From a bacterium (GTDB taxonomy: Bacteria > SZUA-182 > DTGQ01), in NCBI GenBank assembly GCA_040755755.1, contig JBFLZW010000083.1:9791-73790 (forward strand): a DNA stretch of 64,000 nt, in the 5' to 3' direction. Numbering within the stretch: position 1 is the first letter of the stretch; every line of letters begins with the position of its first letter. A program made the position numbers and the translations under genes. This document shows positions 28,655 to 53,418 of the stretch, one piece after another. The notes under the pieces are model-generated. The model was not told the DNA's origin, ran no database searches, and was given only the letters and a program-made list of their open reading frames with translations.

Positions 28655-29617
28655 ATGTGCAAAGTAGCCGTGTTAGGCCTGGGGTGGTGGGGATCCAAGC
28701 TGTTGCGGAATGTACTCCATCATCCCGCAGTTGAAAGCGTGACAGGGGTTGACCCCTCTGCAGTTCGCCGTCAAGAAATTGCTGCAAATCTGAACGCTCC
28801 CGTGTTGGCTGATCCTGAAGAGATATTCCGGGATCCTTCAATCAGGGCCATAGTAATTGCCACTCCACCGAAAACCCATTTTGAGCTGGCCAAAAGTGCC
28901 CTGGCAGCCGGCAAAGATGTGCTGATAACCAAGCCTCCGACCAAAACCCTTGCGGAGCTTGAATACCTTACAGCTCTGGCCGGGCAAAACAGGTGCATCT
29001 TTATGATGGATTCCACCTTTGTCTACAGTGAGCCGGTCTGGAAAATCAGAGAGCTGCTCGAAAGTAATCTTTTTCCGGATATCGTATTCATTCAATCCCT
29101 GCGCTACGGAAATGACCTTCGTCTGCACCATGTAAGCCGTCTGCAGGAAACCATGCTGGATAATGGAATCAGTGTGGTCGAGGACCTTGTGTTCCATGAT
29201 CTGGCTATTCTCAATTACCTGCTGCCAGGCACGAGGTTTCAGCCAAAAGCCGGTCACAAGGTCAATCTGCTCTCGAATACCCTCTGTGATACGGCCTTTA
29301 TCCGGCTGGATACTGACAAATTCCCTGTTCATATCGGATTGAGCTGGACCTTGCCGGAGCGGCGGCGCGAACTGTTGATCTGTGATCGAAAGAAGCAATT
29401 GATATTTGATGATCTTGCAGCAGGTAGCAAGCTCAGGCTGTTCTGGATCGAAGAAAAGCGGGAAGATCTCATCGGGCATGGACATGAAGAGCCCCTTTTC
29501 CGGGTAATTGACCACTTCCTGCACTGCATCCAAACCAGAGGGACCCCGTTTACCGATGGAGTATATATGCTGAAAGTGATGCGCATCTTTCAATCGGTGC
29601 TGGAGCTGTTCCCATGA
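28655..29617 (+). CDS. Gfo/Idh/MocA family sugar dehydrogenase
   Basis: This NAD(P)-binding oxidoreductase (320 residues) has AVLGLGWWGSKLLRN at the start and the pattern VIATPPKTHFELAKSALAAGKDV. The usual EKP site reads TKPP here (LITKPPTKT), a variation of the normally conserved Glu. It sits directly between the aminotransferase and the acetyltransferase. Making the 3-keto sugar substrate of the aminotransferase is the most natural role, as WbpB does. It overlaps the next gene by four bases. Confidence 0.85.
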   Translation: MCKVAVLGLGWWGSKLLRNVLHHPAVESVTGVDPSAVRRQEIAANLNAPVLADPEEIFRDPSIRAIVIATPPKTHFELAKSALAAGKDVLITKPPTKTLAELEYLTALAGQNRCIFMMDSTFVYSEPVWKIRELLESNLFPDIVFIQSLRYGNDLRLHHVSRLQETMLDNGISVVEDLVFHDLAILNYLLPGTRFQPKAGHKVNLLSNTLCDTAFIRLDTDKFPVHIGLSWTLPERRRELLICDRKKQLIFDDLAAGSKLRLFWIEEKREDLIGHGHEEPLFRVIDHFLHCIQTRGTPFTDGVYMLKVMRIFQSVLELFP

Positions 29618-30204
29618 GCAGCAAACGAGAAGTGAATCCGCCTCCCTTCATTCACCAATTAGCCATAGTTGAAACCAAAAAGATTGGCTGCGGTACCCGT
29701 ATCTGGGCATGGACCCACATTCAAGAGGATGTTGTGGTGGGAGAGTATTGTAATGTCGGAGAGCACTGTTTTTTGGAAAACGGCGTTTCGATAGGCAATC
29801 GGGTTGTGGTTAAGAATGGCATTTCCCTCTGGCAGGGAATCACCGTTGCGGACCAGGCTTTCATAGGGCCTCATGTTGTTTTTACCAATGAGCGGTTTCC
29901 ACGCTCCGGCTTTCCCAAGCCGTATGAGGCCATTACCATTGAGCGGGGAGCAAGTATTGGCGCCGGTTCAGTTATTGTTCCCGGCATCCGGATAGGCTGT
30001 TATGCAACTATCGGTGCTGGTTCGGTAGTTACCCGCACGGTGGCCGACCATGCCCTGGTATTTGGAAATCCTGCCAGGCGACAGGGCTGGATGTGTATAT
30101 GCGGTTTAAAGCTGAAAGTCAGTGATCCAATGGCCCCGACAACCTGTGAGTGCGGAAGGAAGTATGAAATATATCAAGAAACCTGCCGGCTGCTGGCTGG
30201 CTGA
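29614..30204 (+). CDS. Hexapeptide N-acetyltransferase (WbpD-like)
   Basis: The 196-residue protein is built of left-handed beta-helix hexapeptide repeats (IGNRVVVKNGISLWQG, ASIGAGSVIVPGIRIG, ATIGAGSVVTRTVADHALVFGNPA). VFTNERFPRSGFPKP is typical of the WbpD subfamily. A C-terminal Cys cluster (MCICGLKL and TTCECGRKY) forms a possible zinc ribbon. It would acetylate the 3-amino sugar made by the preceding two enzymes, using acetyl-CoA. It starts by ATGA overlap. Confidence 0.88.
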   Translation: MSSKREVNPPPFIHQLAIVETKKIGCGTRIWAWTHIQEDVVVGEYCNVGEHCFLENGVSIGNRVVVKNGISLWQGITVADQAFIGPHVVFTNERFPRSGFPKPYEAITIERGASIGAGSVIVPGIRIGCYATIGAGSVVTRTVADHALVFGNPARRQGWMCICGLKLKVSDPMAPTTCECGRKYEIYQETCRLLAG

Positions 30205-30236
30205 AATATAAACCTAAGTGTAAGGAGATTGGAGAG

Positions 30237-31307
30237 ATGATAATTACCAGAACCCCATTCAGGATAACCCTGGGAGGAGGAGGAACGGATTTGCCTTCGT
30301 ATTATACCCGATACGGAGGGTTTGTCTTTAGTGCTGCCATCAACAAGTATATGTTTATTAATTTAAACCGGCCGGTAGTAGATGATCTGGTCAGGGTAAA
30401 GTACGCCAAATCGGAAATTGTCAAGCACAGGGATGATCTCCAGCACGAGATTGCCAGGGCTGCCCTGAGCATGCTGGGCATTGAAAAGGCCATTGAAGTC
30501 ATTTCATCAGCCGACATTCCTGATGGGACAGGGCTGGGATCATCGAGCTGTTACACCGTTGGCCTGCTGAACGCTATTCATGCATTAAAGCGTGATTATA
30601 TCAGTCTTCCTGATCTGGCCGAGGAAGCCTGCTACCTCGAGATTGAGCAGTTAAAGAAACCTATCGGAAAGCAGGATCAATATATTGCCACCTTCGGGGG
30701 ATTGACTGCCTTTGAGATTGCCAGGGATGGGAGAGTTACCGTGATGCGGGTTGATGTTCCTCCCAGCGTAGTGGACGACCTCAGGCGAAATATGTTGATG
30801 TTCTACACCGGCGTATCGCGGCAGAGTATGGATATCCTGAGTGAGCAGAATAAAGGGGCGCAAAACAGCAAAAAGACGGTACTGGACAGTCTTCACTATA
30901 TCAAAGAAAGCGGATACCAGATCAAGGAGCTGATTGAAAAGGGGAACTTGACCGATTTTGGCCTGATGCTGGACAAGCACTGGGAACATAAGAAGAAAAT
31001 GTCTTCCAAAATATCCAGCCTGGAATTTGACCGGATTTATCAGGTAGCCAAAGACTATGGGGCTCTTGGTGGAAAAATAACCGGTGCCGGAGGGGGAGGC
31101 TTTTTCCTGTTTTACATTGAGAAAGGCCATGACCAGTTACGAACGGCGATGCATATGATGGGGCTTCGGGAAATGCGGTTTAACTTTGAGTTTGAAGGAT
31201 CAAAGATTCTCGTAAACCTGGTGAACAGTGAAAATGAATATCAGGGGCGTCACTTGTGGAGCATACCCCAGATTCAGAAGAGAATGTCGGTAATCCATGC
31301 AATTTAA
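30237..31307 (+). CDS. hddA: GHMP-family heptose-7-phosphate kinase (HddA-like)
   Basis: The 356-residue GHMP kinase has RTPFRITLGGGGTDLPSYY at the N-terminus, the P-loop-like PDGTGLGSSSCYTVGLLN and the C-terminal GGKITGAGGGGFFLFY. The sequence is typical of D-glycero-alpha-D-manno-heptose-7-phosphate kinase, which phosphorylates C1 of the heptose-7-phosphate. Genes for the isomerase, phosphatase and guanylyltransferase of the same pathway lie at 33-36 kb, completing the GDP-heptose route. AAGGAGATTGGAGAG precedes the ATG. Confidence 0.88.
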   Translation: MIITRTPFRITLGGGGTDLPSYYTRYGGFVFSAAINKYMFINLNRPVVDDLVRVKYAKSEIVKHRDDLQHEIARAALSMLGIEKAIEVISSADIPDGTGLGSSSCYTVGLLNAIHALKRDYISLPDLAEEACYLEIEQLKKPIGKQDQYIATFGGLTAFEIARDGRVTVMRVDVPPSVVDDLRRNMLMFYTGVSRQSMDILSEQNKGAQNSKKTVLDSLHYIKESGYQIKELIEKGNLTDFGLMLDKHWEHKKKMSSKISSLEFDRIYQVAKDYGALGGKITGAGGGGFFLFYIEKGHDQLRTAMHMMGLREMRFNFEFEGSKILVNLVNSENEYQGRHLWSIPQIQKRMSVIHAI

Positions 31308-31321
31308 GTTAAGGTAAGGCC

Positions 31322-32149
31322 ATGAAACTCAAAGGGAAAATAGCCATTATCACTGGTGGGAGCCGCGGGATAGGAAAGGCTATCGCCAGGGCATTTCTGG
31401 CAGAGGGAGCTTTGGTAACTATTACCGGCCGGAATCAGGATGAATTAGCCAGGGCTGGTGAAGAGCTGTCAAGGGTTGGAGCTATCCGCAGCTTCCGCGC
31501 TGACATCAGGGAGGAGCAGGAAATACGGCAACTTGTTGCCGAGGTCCTGAACACCTTCGGCACGATCGATGTGCTGGTAAACAATGCGGGCATTCAGGGC
31601 CCTATCGGGAAATTCTGGGAAGTTGATTGTGAGGATTGGGCTGATAACATCAAAGTTAACCTTCTGGGGACTGTGCGATGCACCAGGAGTGTAGTGCCAA
31701 TCATGATAGCCAAAAAAGCAGGCAAGATCATCAACCTGTCAGGTGGCGGCGCTGCTGCCTCAAGGCCCTGTTTTTCAGCCTATGGGGCAGGAAAAGCGGC
31801 TCTTGTCCGGTTCACCGAAATTCTGGCCGAGGAGGTCAGAGAGTATCACATCGACGTCAACGCTCTGGCCCCCGGGGCAGTGAATACAAGGATGCTGCAC
31901 GAGATACTGGAGGCAGAAGCAAAGGCTGGTGAGAAAGAACTGAGGGACGCCAGAGAGAGGAGCGAAAAAGGGGGGACATCTCCTGAGCTGGCAGCGGCTT
32001 TGGCGGTTTTTTTAGCTTCATCTGCGTCTGATGGCCTGAGTGGACGTCTCATCAGCGCGGTTTGGGACAACTGGCAGCAGTTTAGCCCGGACCGGATTGC
32101 ATCGATAATGTCGGGCAACTTATATACGCTGAGAAGGGTGAGTCAATGA
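31322..32149 (+). CDS. Short-chain dehydrogenase/reductase
   Basis: The 275-residue enzyme has the NAD(P) motif GGSRGIGKA, NNAGI, INLSGGG and the catalytic pair SAYGAGKAAL. It may act on a nucleotide-sugar intermediate in the heptose branch, or elsewhere. It follows the heptose kinase by 14 bases with AAGGTAAGG, and is followed by a Gfo/Idh gene. Substrate cannot be read. Confidence 0.88.
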   Translation: MKLKGKIAIITGGSRGIGKAIARAFLAEGALVTITGRNQDELARAGEELSRVGAIRSFRADIREEQEIRQLVAEVLNTFGTIDVLVNNAGIQGPIGKFWEVDCEDWADNIKVNLLGTVRCTRSVVPIMIAKKAGKIINLSGGGAAASRPCFSAYGAGKAALVRFTEILAEEVREYHIDVNALAPGAVNTRMLHEILEAEAKAGEKELRDARERSEKGGTSPELAAALAVFLASSASDGLSGRLISAVWDNWQQFSPDRIASIMSGNLYTLRRVSQ

Positions 32150-32192
32150 TCAATAACCACCGTGATGGAATACCGAGTCGGAGGAAATCACC

Positions 32193-33194
32193 ATGAAGGT
32201 GGCCATTATAGGAGCAGGCTTAATAGGGAATAAGAGAGCTATGGCTATCGGGAAATCACCAGGGTGCAGGCTGGCGGCTGTTTGTGATGTTAATCCTGAG
32301 CGGGCAGGGAAACTGGCGCAAATGTATGGCGCGGATACCTACCAGAACTGGGAGGAGATGGGGCAGCGGGATGATATAGAGACGGTAGTCATTGCTACTG
32401 TCAATAAGTTTCTGGCTCCCATTGCCGTATTTTTCCTGGAGAGAGGAAAGCATGTCCTGTGTGAAAAGCCCCTGGGGAGGAATGCCCGGGAAGCTGGCTT
32501 AATGGTAGAGGCTGCCAGAAAGAGCGGGGTGAAGCTGAAGACCGGCTTCAATCACCGTCATCATCCGGGAATAGCCAGGGCACGGCAGCTTGTTGACGAG
32601 GGGCGGATTGGTGAAATCAGCTTCCTGCGGTGCAGGTACGGGCACGGAGGAAGGCCGGGGTATGATCGCGAATGGCGGGCGGATAAGAATTTGTGCGGTG
32701 GCGGTGAATTGCTGGATCAGGGGGTACATGTAGTCGATCTTTTCCGGTGGTTTGCCGGGGATTTTCATGAGGTTTTTGGCTATCTTCCCACCTTGTTCTG
32801 GAACATGCAGGTTGAGGATAATGCCTTTGCCCTGTTTAAGACAAAGACCGGACAGATTGCTTCTCTCCATACCAGTTGGACTCAATGGAAAAACATTTTC
32901 TCCTTTGAGGTATTTGGCCGTGACGGCTATGTGATTGTAGAGGGTTTGGGCGGAAGCTATGGTCCGGAAAGGCTGAAAGCAGGAAGACGAAGATCTGAGG
33001 GCGGAGCCCCGGAAGAGGAGACCATTGATTTTCCCGCCGAGGATATTTCCTGGGAAGAGGAGTGGAAGGAACTGGTACAGGCCATCAGGGAAAACCGTGA
33101 ACCATTAGGGAGCGGGCAGGATGGATACGAGGCCAACCGAATGCTGGAAGCGGTGTATGATTCAGCCCGGCTTGGCAGACCGGTTGAGCTCTAG
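32193..33194 (+). CDS. Gfo/Idh/MocA family oxidoreductase
   Basis: This NAD(P)-binding oxidoreductase of 333 residues has AIIGAGLIGNKRAMAIG at the start, the EKP motif in VLCEKPLGRN, and GGGELLDQGVHVVDLFRW. It is distinct from the earlier Gfo/Idh gene and likely acts on another sugar of the same locus. GGAGGAAATCACC precedes the ATG. Whether it works with the SDR gene in front is an inference from adjacency. Confidence 0.85.
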   Translation: MKVAIIGAGLIGNKRAMAIGKSPGCRLAAVCDVNPERAGKLAQMYGADTYQNWEEMGQRDDIETVVIATVNKFLAPIAVFFLERGKHVLCEKPLGRNAREAGLMVEAARKSGVKLKTGFNHRHHPGIARARQLVDEGRIGEISFLRCRYGHGGRPGYDREWRADKNLCGGGELLDQGVHVVDLFRWFAGDFHEVFGYLPTLFWNMQVEDNAFALFKTKTGQIASLHTSWTQWKNIFSFEVFGRDGYVIVEGLGGSYGPERLKAGRRRSEGGAPEEETIDFPAEDISWEEEWKELVQAIRENREPLGSGQDGYEANRMLEAVYDSARLGRPVEL

Positions 33195-33257
33195 GCCATT
33201 GCCCCCCTATAAGATAGAGTGAAGTTATAAGACAATCATCACAAGGAATCAAGCATC

Positions 33258-34199
33258 ATGAATAAAAAAATTGTCTTAGTTACCGGCTGTGCAGGCTTTA
33301 TTGGCAGCAACCTCAGTAAATGCCTCTGTGACGAAGGGTATAAGGTAGTGGGCATTGATAATCTCTCTCACGGCACTATTGAGAATGTCGATCACCGGGT
33401 TATCTTTCATAAGAAAGATATTCGGGATCAGGAGATTTATTCATTATTTGAAGGAGTGGATACCGTATTTCACCTGGCTGCCAAAAACTGCCTGATTGAC
33501 TGCCTGCGCAATCCCCTTGAGACGAGCGGAATTAATGTGTATGGAACAGTAAATGTTCTTGAAGGAGCCAGGAGAGCCAGGGTGAGAAAGTTTATCTACG
33601 CGGATACCTCGGCTGAATATGAGGGAGTACCTGATTTCCCCTCCACGGTAGAGAGGGTATGTCCTATCGGCACTTACGCAGTGAGCAAGAGGGGAGCCGC
33701 TCTTTTTTGCGAGAGTTACCGCAACCTCCATAGAATGAATATTACTACCTTGCGATATTTTAATGTTTACGGTCCTGCGCAGGATTGGCGGCGCGTAGTG
33801 CCTCCGGTAATGAGCTCTTTCATTATTAAAATGCTCAAGGGGGAAAGGCCGGTAATTTACGGAAATGGAGAAAAAAGGAGGGATTTTATCTACGTGGACG
33901 ATGTCAACCAATTTCACCTTTTAGCTATGAATGATGAGAAATTACATGGCAAAACGTTCAATGTGGGCAGTGGCACGAACTATTCAATCAATGAAATTTT
34001 TTCTGCCATTGAAGGAATCCTGCAAACCGGTCTGACTCCAATCTATAAAGAGGATTTGCCGGGAGAGGCGCAAATCACTCTGGCGGATATCTCCCGGGAG
34101 AAGGAAATCGGCTGGGAGCCGCGAATAAGTCTGCAGGAAGGATTGAAAAGATCGATTGAGTATATCCAAAGAAGGGTACTTCAGGTGGATCTGTCATGA
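33258..34199 (+). CDS. NAD-dependent nucleotide-sugar epimerase/dehydratase
   Basis: The 313-residue extended SDR has GCAGFIGSNL, ADTSAEYEG in place of the usual SS-VYG, the catalytic GTYAVSK, and the later FNVYGPAQDWRRVVPP and NGEKRRDFIYVDDV. It could be an epimerase or dehydratase on GDP-heptose, or a UDP-sugar epimerase. Its ATGA overlap with the heptose guanylyltransferase gene favours the former. AAGGAATC precedes the ATG. Confidence 0.85.
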   Translation: MNKKIVLVTGCAGFIGSNLSKCLCDEGYKVVGIDNLSHGTIENVDHRVIFHKKDIRDQEIYSLFEGVDTVFHLAAKNCLIDCLRNPLETSGINVYGTVNVLEGARRARVRKFIYADTSAEYEGVPDFPSTVERVCPIGTYAVSKRGAALFCESYRNLHRMNITTLRYFNVYGPAQDWRRVVPPVMSSFIIKMLKGERPVIYGNGEKRRDFIYVDDVNQFHLLAMNDEKLHGKTFNVGSGTNYSINEIFSAIEGILQTGLTPIYKEDLPGEAQITLADISREKEIGWEPRISLQEGLKRSIEYIQRRVLQVDLS

Positions 34200-34915
34200 A
34201 AGGAATTGTTCTTTCTGCCGGTAAAGGAACACGGCTTGGCCAGTATACGCGAAATATCCCCAAGGTGATGCTGGAAATCGGGGGAAAGCCGGTACTGGAA
34301 CACGGAATCCTGCTTCTGAAAAAGCATGGGATTGAGGAAATTTTCCTTAACCTCCACTACTGCCCGCAGGTGATTCAGGACTACTTTGGAGATGGCCGAA
34401 AGTGGGGAGTACATATCCGGTATCATTTTGAAGAGGGTCTTTTGGGAACAGCCGGAGCAGTAAAGGCTTTCGAAGAGCAGATAGGGTGGGGGGAAGAAGT
34501 TCTTGTCCTCTATGGAGATAACCTGACCAATTGCAACCTGACCGCTCTGAGGCGTTTTCACCGGGAAAAAAGAGGAATGCTGACCCTGTCCTTTATCGAG
34601 AGTGAGGATGTGCACAAAAGCGGGATTATCGCATTTAATGATAACCATCGGATAGTGAGAATGCTCGAAAAGCCAAAACCGGATGAGGTTTTCAGCCACT
34701 TCGTGAACGCGGGCGTGCTCGTGATGGAGCCTGCGGTGTTCGGCTTGATCCCGCAGGGTATATTTTATGACTTCGGCTATCATCTCCTTCCCAGGATGAT
34801 TTCGGAGGGAATGGAGGTTTATGCTTACCCGATGGATGGATTTTTAATCTCTATAGATACACCGGAATATTATCACCAGGCTCAGGAGATTTTTCGGTTG
34901 GAAGCTGAAGAATAA
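34196..34915 (+). CDS. hddC: Sugar-1-phosphate nucleotidyltransferase (HddC-like)
   Basis: The 239-residue enzyme carries the pyrophosphorylase signature LSAGKGTRLGQYTRNIPKVM at the N-terminus, followed by LLGTAGAVK and LYGDNLTNCNL. Similar to mannose-1-phosphate guanylyltransferases and HddC, it would make GDP-heptose from heptose-1-phosphate. It sits between the epimerase and the phosphatase, overlapping the former (ATGA). The nucleotide (GTP versus others) is not fixed by sequence alone. Confidence 0.82.
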   Translation: MKGIVLSAGKGTRLGQYTRNIPKVMLEIGGKPVLEHGILLLKKHGIEEIFLNLHYCPQVIQDYFGDGRKWGVHIRYHFEEGLLGTAGAVKAFEEQIGWGEEVLVLYGDNLTNCNLTALRRFHREKRGMLTLSFIESEDVHKSGIIAFNDNHRIVRMLEKPKPDEVFSHFVNAGVLVMEPAVFGLIPQGIFYDFGYHLLPRMISEGMEVYAYPMDGFLISIDTPEYYHQAQEIFRLEAEE

Positions 34916-34957
34916 GTGTTAACGTCGTCAGCACGGGCGCAAGAGGGGAAAATTACC

Positions 34958-35722
34958 ATGAAAGGAATGAAAAGAGCAGTATTTCTCGACCGGGATGGGG
35001 TAATTAACGACATTATCTATCACCACGATATCGGGGTAATCGATAGTCCCTTTACCCCTGAACAGTTTCACCTGATCGATGGAGCGGCGCAGGCCATAAA
35101 GGAGATCAAGGGGAACGGTTTACTGGCTGTTGTAGTCAGCAATCAGCCTGGTATAGCCAAGGGGCATTTTAATGAACATGTCTTAGATCTGATTACGGAG
35201 AAAATGATAGCTGATCTGGCTCTTGAAGGGGCAAGCCTGGATGATATTTATCTGTGCCTTCATCATCCTCAGGGAAGCGGGAACGGGAGCGGAGATCGCC
35301 GGTATGTGATGGACTGCACCTGCCGAAAACCAAAACCAGGCCTACTGATCGAGGCAGCCAACAAGCACCGGATAAACCTTGAGGCCTCATATATGATTGG
35401 TGACAGCGTGACGGATATTCAGGCTGGAGCCGCTGTAGGATGCACTACTTTCTTGATTGGCCGGCCTAAATGTGATTTGTGCCGGGTTATAGAGAAAAGT
35501 GGAGTGAAACCGGACTTTATTGTGCCCAGTCTCCTGGAGGCGGTAAAGGTCATCAGGTACCGGGAAAATCTGAGAATCAGCTATCAGGAGATATCTGACG
35601 GGATATCTCTGAAGAATGAAGTATTTATCGATGAAAATCTCTATATTCACGAAGACCGATCGGACAAGAGGAGTTATGTAATCGGAGGGTTTCCCGGCAA
35701 GGAACAGGCAGGGAGAAAATAA
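34958..35722 (+). CDS. gmhB: HAD-family heptose-1,7-bisphosphate phosphatase (GmhB-like), C-terminally extended
   Basis: The protein has the HAD motif I FLDRDGVIN, motif II VVSNQPGIAKG, the metal-binding Cys/His loop (CLHHPQGSG...CTCRKPKPGLL) and MIGDSVTDIQAGAAVG, as in GmhB. Length is 254 residues from the ATG at 34958 (AGAGGGGAAAATTACC upstream), about 60 more than the usual 190. The extra C-terminal part (about 190-254) is polar and of unknown role. It removes the C7 phosphate from heptose-1,7-bisphosphate. A GTG at 34916, with 14 extra residues, is the alternative start. Confidence 0.87.
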   Translation: MKGMKRAVFLDRDGVINDIIYHHDIGVIDSPFTPEQFHLIDGAAQAIKEIKGNGLLAVVVSNQPGIAKGHFNEHVLDLITEKMIADLALEGASLDDIYLCLHHPQGSGNGSGDRRYVMDCTCRKPKPGLLIEAANKHRINLEASYMIGDSVTDIQAGAAVGCTTFLIGRPKCDLCRVIEKSGVKPDFIVPSLLEAVKVIRYRENLRISYQEISDGISLKNEVFIDENLYIHEDRSDKRSYVIGGFPGKEQAGRK

Positions 35723-35756
35723 ACGAGAAATGAAGGTAAGGAGAATGAATGGCATC

Positions 35757-36353
35757 ATGGATTATACAACTGATTATTTTTTAGAGATGCAGAAAATTAT
35801 CGGGCTTTTACAAATTTCGGAAATAGAAAAAATGATCGACCTTCTGGCTGATATGAGAGCAAAGCAGGGAAGACTTTTTTTCCTTGGTATCGGAGGAGGA
35901 GCGGGAAATGCATCCCATGCAGTGAACGACTTTCGCAAGATTGCCGGTTTTGAAGCCTACAGCCCTACGGATAATGCCTCTGAGCTGACTGCCCGCATTA
36001 ATGATGATGGATGGGAGACGGTATTTGTCAGTTGGTTGAAGGGAAGCAGAATTAAGGCTGGGGACGGATTATTTATCTTTTCTGTCGGCGGTGGAAACCT
36101 GGAGAAGAAGATCAGCGCCAACCTTGTATACGCGGTCCAGTATGCTCATGAGGTTGGAGCCAAGGTTCTTGGCATAGTAGGCCGTGACGGTGGGTACACG
36201 GCACAGGCAGCGGACGCCTGTGTGGTTATTCCAACCGTTAACCCTGAAACAGTTACTCCCCATACGGAATCATTTCAGGGGATAATCTGGCATTTAATCG
36301 TTTCCCATCCTAAAATGAAAGTCTCGGAAATGAAATGGGAATCGGTCAAATAG
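35757..36353 (+). CDS. gmhA: SIS-domain phosphoheptose isomerase (GmhA-like)
   Basis: The 198-residue protein has an SIS fold with FLGIGGGAGNASHAVNDFRKIAGFEA and FSVGGGNLEKKISANL, and a His-containing PHTESFQGIIWHLIV at the C-terminus, all as in GmhA. It converts sedoheptulose-7-phosphate to D-glycero-D-manno-heptose-7-phosphate, the entry step of the heptose branch. The start is uncertain: ATG at 35757, 35745 and 35730 are all in frame, with AAGGAG at 35738-35743 fitting 35757 best. Confidence 0.85.
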   Translation: MDYTTDYFLEMQKIIGLLQISEIEKMIDLLADMRAKQGRLFFLGIGGGAGNASHAVNDFRKIAGFEAYSPTDNASELTARINDDGWETVFVSWLKGSRIKAGDGLFIFSVGGGNLEKKISANLVYAVQYAHEVGAKVLGIVGRDGGYTAQAADACVVIPTVNPETVTPHTESFQGIIWHLIVSHPKMKVSEMKWESVK

Positions 36354-36426
36354 AGATATATTCATGGAGTAATACATTCAAATCAAGGAACACGAGAATG
36401 ACAAGGTTATCAAAGAGAGGTCAGGA

Positions 36427-37098
36427 ATGAAAATTTTTATTGATTCAGCAAACCTGAAAGATATTGAAGAAGCACTCAGAAGAGGATTTCCCAGCGGAAT
36501 CACTACCAATCCCTCGATCCTGGCGAAAGAGCAAAAATGTGATTTCAAGGTGCATATCCATAAGATTATCCAATTGGTAAAGGAGTATGGCTATCACAAT
36601 ATTCCTCTGAGTGTGGAGGTTTTCTCCACCGAAGCAGCCGAGATGGTCAGGCAGGCCGAGGATTTTGTGGAGGAGTTTCACTACGAGAATCTCAATATTA
36701 AGATCCCTATTGGCTGGGATGAATTATCCGTGATCAAGCGACTGAAAGACAAAGGTATCAAGGTAAACTGCACCTGCTGCATGTCGTATAATCAGGCTGT
36801 CATGGCGGCTGATGCAGGCTCGGATTTTGTAAGCCTCTTCAGCGGCAGGATCAGGGATATCGGTCATGATTCCTCGGCGGTCATACGTGCCGTGAAGAGG
36901 ACCCTCATAGAATGGGGATGTCCGTCAAAGATCATCGTCGGCAGTATCCGTCACATTGCGGATATTAATGAAGCCATGCAGGCTGGAGCAGATATTGTTA
37001 CCGTCCCGCCCAAGTTTTTCATCCAGATGTGTTCCCATCCCAAGACTACCGAAGCTGTTAACCAGTTTATGAGCGACTTCAAGGAGTGGCTGAAGTAA
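36427..37098 (+). CDS. Transaldolase / fructose-6-phosphate aldolase-like enzyme
   Basis: The 223-residue protein matches the short (FSA/TalC) transaldolase type. It has KIFIDSANLKDIEEALRRGF, ITTNPSILAKE, NIKIPIGWDEL with the Schiff-base Lys, and SLFSGRIRDIG. Placed immediately after the heptose isomerase, it may supply sedoheptulose-7-phosphate or another ketose phosphate to the heptose pathway. The exact activity of short transaldolases cannot be told from sequence. AGAGAGGTCAGGA precedes the ATG. It is the last gene of the polysaccharide locus. Confidence 0.88.
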   Translation: MKIFIDSANLKDIEEALRRGFPSGITTNPSILAKEQKCDFKVHIHKIIQLVKEYGYHNIPLSVEVFSTEAAEMVRQAEDFVEEFHYENLNIKIPIGWDELSVIKRLKDKGIKVNCTCCMSYNQAVMAADAGSDFVSLFSGRIRDIGHDSSAVIRAVKRTLIEWGCPSKIIVGSIRHIADINEAMQAGADIVTVPPKFFIQMCSHPKTTEAVNQFMSDFKEWLK

Positions 37099-37212: not shown

Positions 37213-38424
37213 ATGGCTAAAGAGGAAAAATTCTTTTTAGCTTGCTTACGCTTTTTTCTTCAGAAGACAGGTTCACCAGATGAAATCCGAAGCTCCATGG
37301 GAAAAAATATGGATTGGAACCTCATCCTCTCCTGGGCACAGTCGCATGGGGTTCATCCTTTACTTTATCACGTCCTGAAAGGAGTGAACTGGACAGGAAT
37401 ACCGGGGCAGGTCAGGGAGAGACTGGAGAGTAACTTTCGGGCAAACATGGCCAGAAACCTCATTCTTTCGGCAGAAACAGATAAGGTGCTGATGGCCCTG
37501 GAAAAACGGGGGATAATCAGTGTCCCCCTGAAAGGGATTTTTTTGTCAGAGGAAGTCTACCCGGATATATCATTGAGAGTGGTAACTGACATTGATCTGC
37601 TGGTTCGGGAAGAAGACCTGGCCGGGGCTGAAGAAGCACTGGTAGAGCTGGGATATTGCCACGATCATTCTATCAGGCAGGTCCTTATTCCGAACAACTG
37701 CTACACCCTGCATATGGAGAAAGGAGGGCGAACAGGCCACAACCTCTGTGTTGAGCTGCACTGGGGGCTGGCCAACAGACGGGATTATGTCCTGCCTATG
37801 GAAAGCTGGTGGGAGACAGTCTTTCAGAATACCCGGAATAGATACTATCTGAATGGGATAAGCTGCTTCCGGATGGAACCGGAAATACTGCTGCTCTATT
37901 TGACCATTAACGCTCATATGTCTCGATATGCTTTCCTCAAACAACTTGTCGATATCGCTCAGGTTATCAGCCATTATAAGCACGACATGGATTGGGATAA
38001 AGTGATAGGCATGGCCTGTGAGCTTGGCCTTCTCGACAATCTGGTTTTTGCCCTGGGTCTGGTCTGTCGAATGTTTGACCTGCAAGTATTGCACGTGGCA
38101 GACGAATTATCCAATCGGTTGGCCTCAGGGAAGCAAAGGATATTTCAGGCGCTTTTTCGGGAGCAGAGACTTGTTCATGGCAAGATGGGTCAGGACCTTC
38201 GCCAATTCATCTTATTGTTTTTGCTCGATGAGAAGGTGGTTATCAGGTCAATTTGGAAGGTGATATTTTCCTCTCGGCAGGCTATTGCGTACCGTTATGG
38301 GTTATCTCCTCAATCTTATAGTACCTCTGTATATCTCATTCTCAATCCCTTGCTTTCCCTGTATCGATTACTTCGAGGGTTTATTGTCGATTCCTGGGCG
38401 GGTAAGGGAATTGGAAGGAGTTAA
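37213..38424 (+). CDS. Nucleotidyltransferase of the NTP_transf_5 (PF14907) family
   Basis: The protein (403 residues from the ATG at 37213) has the family's core: VPLKGIFLSEEVYPDIS, then LRVVTDIDLLVREEDL (metal-binding Asp pair), LGYCHDHS, and VELHWGLANRRDYV. The remainder is mainly alpha-helical. In lasso-peptide clusters such nucleotidyltransferases occur with HPr-kinase-like kinases and act on a phosphorylated peptide C-terminus (pseudomycoidin is the case I know). Here it is the first gene of the putative peptide locus, separated from the chaperone gene by an AT-rich gap with a promoter, so it may be transcribed separately. The frame opens further upstream inside the repeat; 37213 is the supported start. 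Confidence 0.8.
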   Translation: MAKEEKFFLACLRFFLQKTGSPDEIRSSMGKNMDWNLILSWAQSHGVHPLLYHVLKGVNWTGIPGQVRERLESNFRANMARNLILSAETDKVLMALEKRGIISVPLKGIFLSEEVYPDISLRVVTDIDLLVREEDLAGAEEALVELGYCHDHSIRQVLIPNNCYTLHMEKGGRTGHNLCVELHWGLANRRDYVLPMESWWETVFQNTRNRYYLNGISCFRMEPEILLLYLTINAHMSRYAFLKQLVDIAQVISHYKHDMDWDKVIGMACELGLLDNLVFALGLVCRMFDLQVLHVADELSNRLASGKQRIFQALFREQRLVHGKMGQDLRQFILLFLLDEKVVIRSIWKVIFSSRQAIAYRYGLSPQSYSTSVYLILNPLLSLYRLLRGFIVDSWAGKGIGRS

Positions 38425-38581: not shown

Positions 38582-38875
38582 ATGCTTATGAAGTATATCG
38601 CAAAGAATGAAAATACAGCTTCGCGAATAATCGATGGGCAGGCAGTGATCATGACTCTGGGAGACAACACCTTGCATACCTTGAATGGTGTGGGATCAAG
38701 AATATGGGAGTTGTGCACCGGTCAAAAAACCATTGGAGAAATTATCGGCGTGATCCAGTCTGAATATTCAGCCAGCCCTGAAAGTATCAGGTCGGATTGT
38801 GAGATTTTTATTCAGGAGCTTTGTACGAAAGGAATATTGATCGTGCAGGATGAAAAAGCGTCAGAGAAGAATTAG
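38582..38875 (+). CDS. PqqD-family peptide chaperone (RiPP recognition element)
   Basis: The protein (97 residues) has the PqqD winged-helix pattern: IIDGQAVIMTLGDNTLHTLNGVGSRIWEL, then IGEIIGVIQSEY and DCEIFIQELCTKGILI. Such proteins bind a leader peptide and deliver it to a radical SAM or other modifying enzyme. It is followed by the radical SAM gene 12 bases later. AGGAG precedes the ATG. The protein is standalone, as in PQQ and several RiPP systems. Confidence 0.88.
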   Translation: MLMKYIAKNENTASRIIDGQAVIMTLGDNTLHTLNGVGSRIWELCTGQKTIGEIIGVIQSEYSASPESIRSDCEIFIQELCTKGILIVQDEKASEKN

Positions 38876-38887: not shown

Positions 38888-39955
38888 ATGGACATTATAT
38901 CCTATACCCTGGAGAAAAAAATTCCCATTGCTGTCCAAATGAACTTAACCAGGAAATGCAATCTCCACTGCATCCACTGCTGCGTAGGGAAGAGGAGGAA
39001 GACACACAGGGACCAAAACGACAGGGCTGGCTCGGAGTTGAGCCTGCTGCATATTCAGCGGGTTTTCAAGCAATTGGTTCAGGCCGGGTGCCTTCTTCTC
39101 ACGCTGTCGGGGGGTGAGATCTTACTTCGGGAGGATCTGATTGATATTATAAGCTGTGCCCGGAGTATGGGCTTTGCGGTTAAGGTTTTTACCAATGGAA
39201 CCCTGATAGGCAGGAAGAATGCCGAAGCGTTCCAGAGGATGCACCTCCAGGAAGTTCATATAAGTCTGTATGCTGCTGATGCTCATATCCATGACATGAT
39301 CAGCGGTGTTTCCGGCTCCTGGACGAAAACCATGAAAGGAATCCGTCTTCTGAGAGAAGAGGGTATATCGGTGAAGGTAAAATGTCCTATCATGAGGCAA
39401 AACCTCTCCGAATATCGGAGAGTGCATGACCTGGCAGTGAGTCTCGGAGCAGATTATGCCTTTGACCCTGTCATCACAGCCCGGGATGACGGTAACTGCG
39501 ACACACTCAAGTACCGCATTGGCCAGGAGGACTTACGAAGAGTTTTGGCTGATCCGATATTTCAGGGTGAACGGAAAAAGGAGAATGGAACACGAGAGAG
39601 CTTTGCCTGTTCGGCAAGTATGATGAGTGAAGAAGTGCCCTGCAGTGCGGGGCACTATGTCTGCTTCATCTCTCCTGAAGGTGATGTTACTCCTTGTGTT
39701 CAGTTGCCCATTTTCTGCGGCAATGTGCGGGATCATGACTTTAACTGGATATGGCATCATTCACCGCAGATGCTCAGGATACGTAAACTGCGGATGAAAG
39801 ATATTCGTATCTGTAATGACTGCAGTTACCTGCCCTGGTGTGCCAGGTGTCCTGGCTTAGCCTATCTTGAGGATGGAGACCTTCTTGGGCCTTCCAGTGC
39901 CGCTTGCTGGATGGTGAAAGCGAGAGAAGAGGAGAAGCGTTGTAATCAGCTATGA
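38888..39955 (+). CDS. Radical SAM/SPASM peptide-modifying enzyme
   Basis: The 355-residue protein has the radical SAM site Cys24-x3-Cys28-x2-Cys31 (RKCNLHCIHC), LTLSGGEILLREDL and FTNGTLIGRKNA. A Cys-rich C-terminal SPASM region (about 235-345) contains VPCSAG, VTPCVQL, ICNDCSYLPWCARCPG and AACW. Its neighbours, the leader-binding chaperone upstream and a 54-residue peptide gene 74 bases downstream, make it a RiPP maturase. SPASM enzymes of this kind form carbon or sulfur cross-links, epimerise or otherwise alter peptide residues. Which of these occurs cannot be read from sequence. No strong ribosome site; coupling to the chaperone gene is likely. Confidence 0.88.
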   Translation: MDIISYTLEKKIPIAVQMNLTRKCNLHCIHCCVGKRRKTHRDQNDRAGSELSLLHIQRVFKQLVQAGCLLLTLSGGEILLREDLIDIISCARSMGFAVKVFTNGTLIGRKNAEAFQRMHLQEVHISLYAADAHIHDMISGVSGSWTKTMKGIRLLREEGISVKVKCPIMRQNLSEYRRVHDLAVSLGADYAFDPVITARDDGNCDTLKYRIGQEDLRRVLADPIFQGERKKENGTRESFACSASMMSEEVPCSAGHYVCFISPEGDVTPCVQLPIFCGNVRDHDFNWIWHHSPQMLRIRKLRMKDIRICNDCSYLPWCARCPGLAYLEDGDLLGPSSAACWMVKAREEEKRCNQL

Positions 39956-40029
39956 TTAAAATCCAGGCATTACCATATCAAGCCATCGTTGTAAGCTAGG
40001 TTATTATCAATGTATAAGGAGGTAGGATT

Positions 40030-40194
40030 ATGGAACAAAAGAAAACGCTGTCTGAAAAAACAGAAGTCAAAAAGGCTTATGAACAACCCCGGATAGTTTC
40101 CGAGGAAGTATTTGAGACCCTGGCTCTTGCCTGCTGCAAGAGCAATGCCTGTTTGCGATACGGTCTTCCCAGGGGACTGCACGGCGTAAGTTGA
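40030..40194 (+). CDS. Candidate RiPP precursor peptide, 54 residues
   Basis: This gene was found by reading the gap after the radical SAM gene. It has a perfect ribosome site (AAGGAGG at 40017-40023, 6 bases before ATG) and encodes 54 residues. The N-terminal part is charged and leader-like (MEQKKTLSEKTEVKKAYEQP). It continues RIVSEEVFETLALA and then a core with Cys35, Cys36 and Cys41 (CCKSNACLRYGLPRG) and a C-terminal Ser54 after LHGV. The position right after a PqqD/radical SAM pair is the normal place for a precursor. The cleavage site is not known; after Ala34 or nearby is a guess from the ALA-CC boundary. The terminal Ser could be phosphorylated by the kinase at 42542, as in the lasso peptide paeninodin. 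Confidence 0.75.
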   Translation: MEQKKTLSEKTEVKKAYEQPRIVSEEVFETLALACCKSNACLRYGLPRGLHGVS

Positions 40195-40310: not shown

Positions 40311-42401
40311 ATGAAATGTATGCCTTTTAAAATCCTGACAGCAATGTTGTGTGGATTATTTTTTCGTATATGCCTGTCTGTAGGGTATATGCCCAATGCC
40401 TATGCCCAGGATATTGCAGCAGAGGGTATTGCTTCAAGTCCTCCTCAGGAGAAGACTTCTTCGGGAGTCTCGGTAATAGAAAATATCGAGTACGACCCGG
40501 TAACTCAGATCTATACTTACACCTATACATTGAGAAACCTTGGTAAAAACCTGGTCTGGTGGTGGGGGATATGGTATGAGGAAGATCCTCAGGCCATCCT
40601 TGATGACTCTCAGGCAGATGAGCAGGGCTTCACACCTGCTGATGTGACTGACTGCTCGCCCGGATGGAAGAACACTGCCCCTCAAAACCGTATGGGGTAT
40701 TATTTATATAATGGCCCCAACGGAGAAATGGGCTTTTATTCCACCTATGCCAGCGACTTCCGGTCCGGTAACAGCCCCATTGTCCCTGCCGGGAACGATC
40801 TCCCGCTCATCGGAGGACAATGGGGATGGAATGGGCAAGGGGCTAATATTCTCACTGCCTATGGTATCCAGAAAGGACAAACAGGCTATTATGTAATTCG
40901 ATCCACAAAATACTTCCTGGATAATAAAATGTTTTTCTATAATACGAAAGATTATTGGAATTCATATTACGATAGCCAAACCGGACAACTCATTATCAGA
41001 GGATTTGAATTTGTTTCTACTACTCAGCGCTCTTACAGCATATCGACATCGTCCGGAGAACCTCTGCCGGCCAGCCCAGACGATCCGGTCCTCCCTGAGA
41101 TCGACGGGGGTGATGGCTGGCAGGGAGATGATTCAACCAGACAGGTAATATCCTCTCCTCCAGCAGCCGTCCTGGCCACACCTGTTCTTTCCCCCTCATC
41201 CGTCACGTTTACAGGTTCAATGTCCGTATCAATCACCTGTGCCACGCAAGGTGCTATCATCCGCTACACTAAAGACGGCAGTGAGCCGACAGTAGATTCC
41301 CCTGCCTATACTGCTCCCCTGACACTGACAAAAACAACTACTCTTAAGGCAAAGGCTTTCAAGAGCGGCTATACTGCAAGCGACACCGCAAGCGAAACCT
41401 ACACTAAGTTGGAAAAGGCAGCTATTCCTTCCATTTCGCCAGTATCGCGAACCTTTAGTGATTCAATTACCGTATCACTGACCTGTACGACTCAAGGGGC
41501 TGCTATCCGCTATACGATTGATGGCAGTGAACCGACTGAAACCTCTTCAGCCTATTCAACTCCCTTGATCCTGACCAGCACCACAACCATTAAAGCGAAA
41601 GCCTTCAAGAGCGGTTTCAACCCAAGTGATACCGTAAGCGGAACCTATACGAAACTCATAAAACAAGTAGCTACCCCCGGCTTCTCTCTCCCATCTGGCA
41701 TCTTTCATGGTTCAGTATCTGTGTCGATCACCTGTGCTACCCAAGGGGCTATTGTCCGCTATACAACTGATGGCAGTGAGCCGATTGAGAATTCGCCAAT
41801 CTATACCGCTCCTCTGACCCTGACCAGTACCACCACTATTAAAGCTAAGGCATTCAAGGATGGTTATACTCCGAGTGCTGCCGCCAGAAGTACCTATACG
41901 GAGGAAGTTGAAACAGTGGCCAAACCTGCGTTCTCTCCCCTGCCTCGTACTTTTACCGATTCAGTAGCCGTGTCGATCACCTGCGCCACTCAAGGGGCTA
42001 CTATCCGCTATACGATTGATGGCAGTGAACCGACCGAGAATTCGCCAATTTATGCCGCTCCTCTGACTCTGACCAACACCGCCACTATCAAAGCTCAAGC
42101 TTTCAAGAGTGGCGATGTTCCGAGTGATGCCGTGAGCGGAACCTACACCAAGTTGGCAGCGCCAAAACAGCCTGCGACTAAATTTTCGGATTACTCCAGC
42201 AGTACTACTACTACTATCACCTTGTGGAACCAACCGTGGTCATATTCATATAGCAGCATCGCTATGGACTATCAGCCCTGGTCTTCAACATCCTCAAGCT
42301 GGAGTTATCAGCCCTGGTCTTCCACTTCAAGTTGGGATTATCAATCATGGTCATTTACCACTTCAAGCTGGAATTACCAGCCATGGTCTTCTAATTTTTA
42401 A
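40311..42401 (+). CDS. Secreted repeat protein with four chitobiase-C-terminal-type modules and a Trp/Ser-rich tail
   Basis: The 696-residue protein has a signal peptide (hydrophobic core near residues 7-24, cut after AYA). A domain of about 210 residues follows (GVSVIENIEYDP to GFEFVSTTQRSYS). Four close repeats of about 80 residues come next (roughly 287-366, 370-447, 452-531, 537-615). Each carries the pattern ATQGA-IRYT-DGSEPT-SP-YTAPLTLT-TTTIKAKAFKSG, typical of CHB_HEX_C/FN3-like modules. The C-terminal 65 residues are a tandem of YQPWSSTSSSW-like units with Trp every 6-8 residues. No anchor or sorting signal is seen. It follows the precursor gene by 116 bases, with GAGGAAG. Role is unknown; it could be a surface or cell-wall binding protein, or a second target of the peptide-modifying enzymes (a speculative idea). 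Confidence 0.85.
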   Translation: MKCMPFKILTAMLCGLFFRICLSVGYMPNAYAQDIAAEGIASSPPQEKTSSGVSVIENIEYDPVTQIYTYTYTLRNLGKNLVWWWGIWYEEDPQAILDDSQADEQGFTPADVTDCSPGWKNTAPQNRMGYYLYNGPNGEMGFYSTYASDFRSGNSPIVPAGNDLPLIGGQWGWNGQGANILTAYGIQKGQTGYYVIRSTKYFLDNKMFFYNTKDYWNSYYDSQTGQLIIRGFEFVSTTQRSYSISTSSGEPLPASPDDPVLPEIDGGDGWQGDDSTRQVISSPPAAVLATPVLSPSSVTFTGSMSVSITCATQGAIIRYTKDGSEPTVDSPAYTAPLTLTKTTTLKAKAFKSGYTASDTASETYTKLEKAAIPSISPVSRTFSDSITVSLTCTTQGAAIRYTIDGSEPTETSSAYSTPLILTSTTTIKAKAFKSGFNPSDTVSGTYTKLIKQVATPGFSLPSGIFHGSVSVSITCATQGAIVRYTTDGSEPIENSPIYTAPLTLTSTTTIKAKAFKDGYTPSAAARSTYTEEVETVAKPAFSPLPRTFTDSVAVSITCATQGATIRYTIDGSEPTENSPIYAAPLTLTNTATIKAQAFKSGDVPSDAVSGTYTKLAAPKQPATKFSDYSSSTTTTITLWNQPWSYSYSSIAMDYQPWSSTSSSWSYQPWSSTSSWDYQSWSFTTSSWNYQPWSSNF

Positions 42402-42478: not shown

Positions 42479-42541
42479 TTGTGTCTATTCTTAAATACTA
42501 TTCAACTCAACATACATTCTAACCCGGCAGGGAAGCAAAAA

Positions 42542-43387
42542 ATGCGTAACTTCAAATTGGAAATCGGGGGTATACCACTAATAATTAAGTCCTGTGAACC
42601 GTGGTTTATTCAGATGATAGCTGAAAAATATCGAGACTTTGCTTTATTGTGCGGTTTGAAAGAAGAAGGTATTTTTCAAACATCCCGTTCAAGTTCTCAT
42701 CCTCCCGTTCATCTGCAGATTGACATTCGGCAGAAAGAATCGGAGAAATGGAATGATATGCTCGACGAAACACTTTGGGTGGATGTTTCATATCATAATA
42801 AGAAGTTTATCATTCGGAGACCTGATCTTGAGGGGGACATCGATTTTGATAACCGGATTGCCCGCGTTACCAACAGGGCAGCGGTTTACAGTTTTGATTC
42901 CTTTTTGCGAATTCTCTATTCCCTGTTCCTTGTTCAAGAGGGAGGGTTCCTCCTTCATGCTGCCTCAGTTGTAAGAGATGGTCAGGGGTATCTGTTCATG
43001 GGAAAATCCGGAGCAGGAAAGTCCACTATTGCCATCCATTCTTCTAAATACACAGTCTTAAGTGACGAGATTTCCCTGGTTAAAAAGGCAGGTGCCGATT
43101 ATCTGGTCTACAGCACTCCTTTTTGGGGGGAGCAGGAAATTAAGGGCAGGAATTATTTCTCTCCTCTTGCTGGGATTTATCGATTAAAGCAGAGCTCTCA
43201 GTTGCTGACGAGAAAATTGTCCGAAAGGGAGGCATTGTGCAGATTGATGGAAAATATCTTATATTTTAGCCGGGAACCTTTTCTGACCAGACAATTATTT
43301 CAAAACTGTACTGATCTAATCCAGCAAGTAGCAATTTATGAATTGGAATTCCAAAAGGATAGTTCATTTTGGAATATGATCGGTTAG
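42542..43387 (+). CDS. HPr-kinase-like P-loop kinase
   Basis: The protein (281 residues) has the P-loop GKSGAGKSTIAI at about 154-165, preceded by FLLHAASVVRDGQGYLFM, and the TVLSDEISLV Walker B-like site at about 171-180, as in HPr kinase/phosphorylase C-terminal domains. It lacks the HPr-type N-terminal domain. Kinases of this form occur in RiPP clusters; in the lasso peptide paeninodin one phosphorylates the precursor's C-terminal Ser. Here a precursor ending in Ser is encoded in the same locus. ATG 42542 has AGGGAAG upstream; a TTG frame start at 42479 is less likely. A hairpin lies just upstream, so it may have its own promoter. Confidence 0.83.
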   Translation: MRNFKLEIGGIPLIIKSCEPWFIQMIAEKYRDFALLCGLKEEGIFQTSRSSSHPPVHLQIDIRQKESEKWNDMLDETLWVDVSYHNKKFIIRRPDLEGDIDFDNRIARVTNRAAVYSFDSFLRILYSLFLVQEGGFLLHAASVVRDGQGYLFMGKSGAGKSTIAIHSSKYTVLSDEISLVKKAGADYLVYSTPFWGEQEIKGRNYFSPLAGIYRLKQSSQLLTRKLSEREALCRLMENILYFSREPFLTRQLFQNCTDLIQQVAIYELEFQKDSSFWNMIG

Positions 43388-43433: not shown

Positions 43434-44039
43434 TCAGTTTCCTTTGAGGTTAAAAAAGGAGCACAGAAAATGAAAAGCATACCAAAATCCTTTCCGGAAT
43501 GCTCTATAAGAAAAATCCTGCCATTGACTTTTCCCGCCTTTTTGATTTTCTCTGCCCTTTTCTAATAAGGCATAAATCCTTCCAGCCATTTTATAAAATT
43601 TCAACAGCTTCTGATTTCGCTTCTGCCATAGGACAGGTTGTAATCTGGGGGAAAGCTCCGAATGACCTTCAATATTCATCACAATGGCCGCGATCTCATC
43701 AGGATAGCATACTTTTGGAAAATAATCATTATCTCCCTTTTCCCAGAATAAAAGCCGGTTTTTAAGGCAAAATCTGCCTACAATTCTGTGGATTATTAAG
43801 GTGCCCGCTGCTGTGGAACTACTTCCTACGTCATTTTCCTGCTGAAATGTCAGGCCATTTTGGCAAAAATGGTGAGTGCTTGGGGGCTTTCTTTTTCTTA
43901 AAATAACTATCCTGCCTACCTGGAGATCAGATTCAGGGCTAAAATCTGTCCAGACTTTAGCCGATAGGGTTTTGCCATCAGGAAATAGCCCTTTCATGCT
44001 ATCTCCTTTGATCTTAACTTGCCAGATATCAGTTGTCAT
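43434..44039 (-). CDS. S26 (Sec11-type) signal-peptidase-like serine protease
   Basis: The 201-residue protein has GDSMKGLFPDG (Ser14), IIHRIVG (His84) and KGDNDYF (Asp103). This is the Ser-His-Asp triad of archaeal/eukaryotic Sec11-type signal peptidases rather than the Ser-Lys pair of bacterial LepB. About 30 residues are inserted between the Ser and His motifs. No membrane helix is visible at the N-terminus; a hydrophobic stretch is at the C-terminus (FWYAFHFLCSFF). Small S26-like proteases are found in clusters with HPr-kinase-like kinases, PqqD proteins and nucleotidyltransferases, where leader cleavage is a natural role. It converges on the kinase gene (46-base gap) and lies downstream of the rRNA operon terminator. 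Confidence 0.75.
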   Translation of the reverse strand: MTTDIWQVKIKGDSMKGLFPDGKTLSAKVWTDFSPESDLQVGRIVILRKRKPPSTHHFCQNGLTFQQENDVGSSSTAAGTLIIHRIVGRFCLKNRLLFWEKGDNDYFPKVCYPDEIAAIVMNIEGHSELSPRLQPVLWQKRNQKLLKFYKMAGRIYALLEKGRENQKGGKSQWQDFSYRAFRKGFWYAFHFLCSFFNLKGN

Positions 44040-44129: not shown

Positions 44130-44139
44130 CAGATATTAG

Positions 44140-44256
<117 letters not shown>

Positions 44257-44355
44257 AAATGTAAGTCAAGTTTTTGATCTTTGCTTTTGGGGTAAATGGA
44301 GATTGAAGGAGGGCATCTTGCGCATTTACAAAGAATGCAGGGAAAGAAAAGAGTA

Positions 44356-47364
<3,009 letters not shown>

Positions 47365-47494
47365 ATACATTTTCCCTTGTATGTCAAAGAATCCTTCGTC
47401 TAATTTACCCTAGCAAAGATTCAATTTTCAAAGATCTAAAAAGAAACCACACAGACCCAAACTCACCAAAGATATTCTCTCTCTCTCTTCTTTT

Positions 47495-47520
47495 CTCTGT
47501 GTCTCTGTGCCTCTGTGGTT
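47495..47520. repeat. ctctgtgcctctgtg-family repeat inside the rRNA spacer
   Basis: ctctgtgtctctgtgcctctgtggtt lies between tRNA-Ala and 23S, matching the dispersed repeat family at 37113 and 62735. It follows a ctctctct tract. Confidence 0.75.
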
Positions 47521-47603
47521 GCCTTTCTTTTTTTCACATATTACCCCTTCATGGGTATCTTTCAAAAACCTTTTTTCTTTTCTCTTTCCTGCTTTCTCTT
47601 CTA

Positions 47604-47679
47604 TGGTGGAGATGAGCGGGTTCGAACCGCTGACCTCCTGCTTGCAAGGCAGGCGCTCTCCCAACTGAGCTACACCCCC
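47604..47679 (-). tRNA. tRNA-Ala (anticodon TGC)
   Basis: Minus-strand cloverleaf: GGGGGTG acceptor, CTTGCAAG anticodon arm with TGC, TTCGAA T-loop. CCA is encoded at the 3' end. Standard position in a 16S-23S spacer. Confidence 0.95.
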
Positions 47680-47692
47680 TTTTTCTCTGTTA

Positions 47693-47766
<74 letters not shown>

Positions 47767-47823
47767 AACAAAAAGGGAGGGTATCGCTATTTCGCTTATC
47801 GTCAATCTCAATGGATTCTTTCA

Positions 47824-49395
<1,572 letters not shown>

Positions 49396-49442
49396 TTTTA
49401 TCCCTATCCTAAATTCCTGTCCGCAAAATAGCGATACCCATC

Positions 49443-49454
49443 TTTTCAAAGAAC
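49443..49454 (-). promoter_or_regulatory. boxA-like antitermination site in the 16S leader
   Basis: GTTCTTTGAAAA on the minus strand, 48 bases upstream of 16S. A related GATCTTTGAAAA is in the 16S-23S spacer at 47425-47436. Both resemble rRNA boxA; the call is by pattern. Confidence 0.55.
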
Positions 49455-49590
49455 TATATACTGCCTTCTTTCTCTTTCTTCCCGTGGATCTTTCTCAACC
49501 GCGTTTTTTATTCTATCAACCTTTCCTCCCCCTGTCAAGCTCTTTGTTCGCTTTTTTCTCAACCCAGCATCCTGCTCAACAGGAAATCCC

Positions 49591-49717: not shown

Positions 49718-49734
49718 AGAGAAAATTAAATTAG

Positions 49735-49851
<117 letters not shown>

Positions 49852-49950
49852 AAATGTAAGTCAAGTTTTTGATCTTTGCTTTTGGGGTAAATGGAGATTG
49901 AAGGAGGGCATCTTGCGCATTTACAAAGAATGCAGGGAAAGAAAAGAGTA

Positions 49951-52959
<3,009 letters not shown>

Positions 52960-53089
52960 ATACATTTTCCCTTGTATGTCAAAGAATCCTTCGTCTAATT
53001 TACCCTAGCAAAGATTCAATTTTCAAAGATCTAAAAAGAAACCACACAGACCCAAACTCACCAAAGATATTCTCTCTCTCTCTTCTTTT

Positions 53090-53115
53090 CTCTGTGTCTC
53101 TGTGCCTCTGTGGTT
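53090..53115. repeat. ctctgtgcctctgtg-family repeat, second rRNA spacer
   Basis: Copy of the repeat at 47495-47520 in the second operon. Confidence 0.75.
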
Positions 53116-53198
53116 GCCTTTCTTTTTTTCACATATTACCCCTTCATGGGTATCTTTCAAAAACCTTTTTTCTTTTCTCTTTCCTGCTTTCTCTTCTA

Positions 53199-53274
53199 TG
53201 GTGGAGATGAGCGGGTTCGAACCGCTGACCTCCTGCTTGCAAGGCAGGCGCTCTCCCAACTGAGCTACACCCCC
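53199..53274 (-). tRNA. tRNA-Ala (anticodon TGC), second copy
   Basis: Identical to 47604-47679, CCA encoded. Confidence 0.95.
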
Positions 53275-53287
53275 TTTTTCTCTGTTA

Positions 53288-53361
<74 letters not shown>

Positions 53362-53418
53362 AACAAAAAGGGAGGGTATCGCTATTTCGCTTATCGTCAA
53401 TCTCAATGGATTCTTTCA

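Follow-up and report, generated by a model that had tools for sequence, protein, structure and literature searches.

A predicted radical-SAM RiPP precursor with a conserved C-terminal serine, encoded beside enzymes known from phosphorylated lasso peptides

A short gene at positions 40030–40194 (+) of the window, that is, the whole stretch of 64,000 nucleotides analysed here, almost certainly encodes a RiPP precursor of 54 aa, to judge from the ORF call, the alignment of homologues, a leader profile and codon analysis. The translation, MEQKKTLSEKTEVKKAYEQPRIVSEEVFETLALACCKSNACLRYGLPRGLHGVS, consists of a leader of about residues 1–34 and a core of about residues 35–54 (CCKSNACLRYGLPRGLHGVS). 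We consider it rather probable that the product is a radical-SAM RiPP carrying a phosphate, perhaps capped by a sugar, on its C-terminal Ser, and that its leader is removed before Cys35 by an S26-type peptidase. In the simplest reading, this is a radical-SAM RiPP built on the RRE-kinase-nucleotidyltransferase set of the phosphorylated lasso peptides, with the radical SAM (rSAM) enzyme and the S26 peptidase replacing the cyclase and the B2 protease.

The first-pass annotation of this DNA had described a 54-codon frame 74 bases downstream of a radical SAM gene, with Cys35, Cys36, Cys41 and a terminal Ser54; the frame, the gap (the rSAM ORF ends at 39955) and all four residues were found as described. 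The Shine-Dalgarno sequence AAGGAGG is also present, at 40016–40022 (+), with a spacer to the ATG of 7 nt instead of the 6 that had been given. An ORF of 165 nt is longer than the usual length cut-offs of gene callers, and the remark that it is too short for them was probably overstated. In library searches the peptide matched no Pfam or NCBIfam model, and no relatives were found in the plasmid collection or in the viral collection. A lipobox reading of the LALAC motif was rejected, as the leader is charged and a signal peptide is absent. The gene has the features of a precursor of the PqqD/radical SAM type: a small conserved ORF, adjoining RRE and rSAM genes, a constant leader and a variable core.

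Five homologues, found in three related genomes of the same genus and family, share the leader, the CC-x4-C arrangement and the final Ser. The identity to the window peptide is 72% in G001, 76% over 45 residues in G002 and 63–72% for the three copies of G003. Constant throughout this alignment are K14, K15, Y17, P20, S24-L33, C35, C36, K37 and C41 and, in the C-terminal part, Y44, P47, G49, H51, V53 and S54. A GGAGG-type ribosome site precedes five of the six copies, the sixth (L026) having the weaker AGGAGA. The frame had been expected to show purifying selection, and the differences do pile up at third codon positions: by codon position 1/2/3 they number 55/18/163 in the leader and 49/41/141 in the core. 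Among pairs with computable dS, the dN/dS ratio is about 0.03–0.07 for the more divergent copies, and it reaches 0.39 for the window compared with its nearest relative; all other pairs are saturated. Given homologues of 63–76% identity with the same final Ser, the ribosome sites and the third-position bias, the conservation of the frame, as read from these alignments, is far beyond chance.

A scan of named genomes added two loci from Myxococcota, whose peptides have the leader YERPAVISEEVFET[LM]ALSC followed by a short core with DRS at its end. A leader-only profile, covering a 24-residue leader region (Y-x-x-P...FE..AL.C) and not containing the C-terminus, was then run on a domain-wide genome sample, the regions were fetched, and lineages were counted by family-level codes; a phylum-wise enlargement of the sample met mostly small phyla. 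The profile yielded 45 precursors, spread over at least 13 lineages of family level. The last residue is Ser in 42, Thr in two and Asp in one, against a background at the same loci of 7.4% for long ORFs and 10% for short frames. The binomial probability of this terminal Ser is ~1e-11 by lineage; the value for all copies, ~1e-38, is too small, as the copies are related. Since the C-terminus lies outside the search profile, the enrichment is not circular. By contrast, 15 different residues occur at the penultimate position, and Ser54 is the most telling residue of the precursor. The cores, of 12–61 residues counted from the first core Cys, are mostly unalignable between lineages, and every one of the 45 precursors has at least two Cys. 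The EVFETLALAC boundary, which the first-pass annotation had likened to small precursor-like peptides near PqqD genes, is kept in the homologues and also in PqqD/rSAM-linked peptides of unrelated lineages, while the exact Cys spacing holds in the close family only; more distant peptides keep the first Cys, following AL., together with one or more further Cys. Many low-scoring peptide matches, and also the matches in G096, G173 and G384, were taken as chance. Several of the precursors stand alone, a long way from the enzyme genes, which we count against the model. In G112 (L121–L127) at least ten related precursors, of the form C[ED]DYxYYxKxYEGC...LGRGK...C..S, occur mostly without maturation genes in the fetched stretch. 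The precursors form a scattered family among the peptide natural products of bacteria, apparently without a name so far, and we found no description of a cluster of this kind in the open-licence literature.

Most complete clusters have six genes in common: the precursor, a PqqD-like protein, an rSAM/SPASM enzyme, an HPr-kinase-like protein, a PF14907 nucleotidyltransferase and an S26-type peptidase. In the window, the PqqD-like RRE protein is encoded at 38582–38875 (+) (PF05402, 60.5 bits against a cut-off of 23.4); its best NCBIfam match is the lasso PqqD model NF033536, below the cut-off (36.4 against 80). It is predicted to bind the YxxP part of the leader, here YEQP, and would hand the precursor to the rSAM/SPASM maturase encoded at 38888–39955 (+) (PF04055, PF13186), whose scores lie under all the cut-offs of the curated NCBIfam types compared. 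This enzyme would introduce a cross-link, or some other modification centred on carbon, into the core with its Cys residues. The conserved Cys may form thioethers, to an alpha carbon as in sactipeptides or to a beta/gamma carbon as in ranthipeptides; C-C bonds or bonds of another kind may be made instead. The order and content of the cluster are retained in G001, and G003 retains PqqD, rSAM, precursor, kinase, peptidase and nucleotidyltransferase; two further G003 precursors adjoin PF14907 genes, without PqqD.

Inside the window cluster, and in the same place in G001, lies a gene for a secreted protein with four chitobiase-C/Fn3-associated repeats (40311–42401, +). Large secreted-type proteins also adjoin the clusters of L042, L043, L104, L106, L133, L025 and L030, and the kinds observed include chitobiase-C/Fn3-associated repeats, FG-GAP, DUF7948 with SBBP propeller, subtilase and peptidase C25. 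The window genome has further PqqD-rSAM-HprK clusters at G000:C34 (L029) and G000:C4 (L030), one of them with a gene for a peptidase C25 and one for a nucleotidyltransferase similar to the window's. Beside the cluster are two rRNA operons in direct repeat, at 44135–49552 and 49730–55147 (-), identical over ~5.4 kb; the repeat is either a genuine tandem duplication or an artefact of assembly.

The HPr-kinase-like protein (42479–43387, +), of the HprK/PEPCK fold, is predicted to be a peptide Ser kinase and would phosphorylate the C-terminal Ser54. It retains the His-Lys-Asp-Asp catalytic motif of the lasso kinases (PMC9266682, PMC10368454) as His160, the Walker A Lys181, Asp196 and Glu197, the second Asp being Glu here and Asp in several others. 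A PDB sequence search gave mostly PEPCK and generic P-loop matches, and for this reason a fold search was used; with the structure model (pLDDT 72), it matched PEPCK and HPrK/P. Of the 372 genomes sampled, 55 match the kinase profile, and these include every one of the 16 in which a convincing precursor was found; when the eight genomes supplying rows of the kinase profile are left out, the figure is 8/8 (p ~4e-8). Starting from the kinase loci, eight candidate YxxP peptides missed by the leader profile were chosen by eye among small ORFs with a YxxP motif, and six of them end in Ser.

The PF14907 nucleotidyltransferase (37216–38424, +) belongs to the same family as that of the kinase-bearing lasso clusters and may add a sugar or a nucleotide to the Ser54 phosphate. 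In a Deinococcus protein, PF14907 is fused to a lasso B2 domain. Directly upstream of the PF14907 gene, at 29614–37098, are nucleotide-sugar genes (GHMP kinase, NTP transferase, HAD phosphatase, SIS isomerase, transaldolase), possibly a heptose pathway and the source of the sugar. The S26/S24-type peptidase (43434–44039, -) has the motifs GDSM..., HRI and KGDND, and the Sec11/SipW-type Ser, His and Asp motifs are present in it and across the clusters; its match to TIGR02228 is weak (3.5e-4, below the cut-off) and its predicted structure has a pLDDT of only 40. Nearly every cluster that does not run into a contig end encodes an S26 protein (G.SM...G, HR, KGD); this protein is fused to the kinase in L116 and L146 and to the nucleotidyltransferase in L117 and L118, and no S26 gene was found near the precursors of L129 and L119. 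As Ala stands at position -3 to the first core Cys in 41 of the 45 precursors and no other protease is present, this protein is likely the leader peptidase, cutting at A-x-[AS]|C and, in the window peptide, most simply at Ala-Leu-Ala|Cys35. Most precursors also have a small residue at -1, which together with the Ala at -3 fits the needs of AxA-type cleavage; others do not, a point against the model.

Among known systems, the nearest are the phosphorylated lasso peptides (paeninodin PadeK, ThcoK, SyanK; pseudomycoidin PsmK/PsmN), with the same YxxP leader, discrete PqqD-type RRE, HPrK-like kinase, precursor with C-terminal Ser and nucleotidyltransferase (PF14907 in the lasso clusters examined). 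The pseudomycoidin pathway uses its kinase to phosphorylate the precursor at the C-terminal Ser, and a homologue of the nucleotidyltransferase to attach a hexose (PMC8498205, PMC9266682). A Paenibacillus lasso cluster (L168) has a PF14907 gene, a precursor ending in Ser, a kinase, a PqqD above the lasso cut-off and, judged from sequence, an asparagine-synthetase-like gene; its kinase, nucleotidyltransferase and PqqD match those of the window type. These likenesses could mean that the window peptide is itself a lasso precursor, with cyclase and B2 protease located elsewhere or replaced. We hold this extremely unlikely, and lasso membership was rejected: the B2 protease (PF13471) and the lasso cyclase (PF00733) are absent among the genes tested at 29.6–44.0 kb, and radical SAM/SPASM and S26 peptidase genes are found instead, the rSAM gene adjoining in most lineages. 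Moreover, the cores contain Cys and lack the lasso acceptor residue: taking Cys35 as residue 1, core positions 7–9 are C, L and R, with no Asp or Glu, and, with the same cleavage site, leader position -2 is Leu where Thr is expected. PqqD beside a PqqE-like rSAM enzyme, and no dedicated ABC transporter beside the window cluster among the genes tested (29.6–44.0 kb), would suit a peptide that gives rise to a redox cofactor or to a group bound to protein, as with PQQ or mycofactocin, rather than to an exported natural product. This reading is very unlikely, since the cores (12–61 residues) vary too much from lineage to lineage to serve a single cofactor; the scores of the PqqE and mycofactocin models fall far short of the cut-off, and membership of these two systems was rejected.

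A stronger competitor, although we regard it as rather unlikely, accepts the radical-SAM RiPP precursor and assigns the terminal Ser to recognition by a protease or exporter or to an ester or lactone, the kinase-like protein acting elsewhere or as a scaffold. Related clusters of the SynChlorMet kinase type have YxxP peptides without a C-terminal Ser, so the kinase alone does not imply that residue; on a tree of the kinases, the Ser label shows no more grouping than after shuffling, and clusters with and without Ser are not separated; the precursor of L129 ends in Asp beside a kinase gene. All three are counted against the kinase model, and BsfK, a lasso kinase of the same superfamily, acts on Ser3 and not on the C-terminus (PMC10368454). 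On the other hand, Thr is nearly the sole substitute for Ser (2/45), as for a kinase acceptor, the His-Lys-Asp motif is intact, and the lasso clusters offer a close functional precedent, which argue for phosphorylation of the terminal Ser.

The SynChlorMet cassette (ScmC-ScmF, TIGR04248–04251) has the same PqqD, SPASM rSAM and HprK-like ScmC, often with S26 and PF14907 genes nearby; its ScmC loci differ from the window family in having Gly/Cys-repeat peptides without C-terminal Ser. Membership was rejected on the scores of the ScmC-ScmF models against their cut-offs (46.3/125, 28.6/100, 107.8/400 and 93.9/400). Small ORFs with Gly/Cys-repeat cores and no C-terminal Ser were observed at ScmC or ScmC-like loci in L169 (2446–2613, -), L171 (2468–2785, -), L175 (653–883, +) and L176 (1142–1486, +), most with a YxxP-like leader; they are candidates for the SynChlorMet precursors. 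No such precursor is known to have been identified in the NCBIfam text. GeoRSP membership was likewise rejected (rSAM 102/400, PqqD 32.3/100). GeoRSP, PqqD/PqqE, mycofactocin and WgkB/WgkC combine an RRE with a SPASM maturase as here, but no equivalog cut-off is reached in the window, and we know of no kinase or C-terminal Ser in their definitions.

The RRE-Finder study classed as false positives ~300 RREs of the lasso type that adjoin rSAM genes, while granting that discrete RREs without lasso machinery could come from uncharacterized RiPP classes; its passages on this set, which probably includes systems like that of the window, describe no precursor, kinase or C-terminal Ser (PMC7470986).

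The family probably joins radical-SAM chemistry to tailoring enzymes of the kind found in lasso-peptide pathways. A wider proposal, possible but held only tentatively, is a widespread unnamed RiPP class of rSAM-modified Cys peptides of unrelated sequence, with a phosphorylated and often sugar-capped C-terminal Ser and S26-type leader removal. In this class rSAM and S26 would stand in for lasso cyclase and B2, with RRE, kinase and nucleotidyltransferase as the common core, and the peptides might be exported to the large secreted proteins beside several clusters, or be displayed on them. Precursors and a specific chemistry are in this way proposed for a gene set of many bacterial lineages, unnamed in current family libraries. 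They may also account for some of the RREs of lasso type that earlier mining had set aside next to rSAM genes. If the proposal is true, phosphorylation of a C-terminal Ser would be a modular tailoring step common to lasso and radical-SAM peptides, and one enzyme set would act on Cys-rich cores of very different length, which would be useful for peptide engineering.
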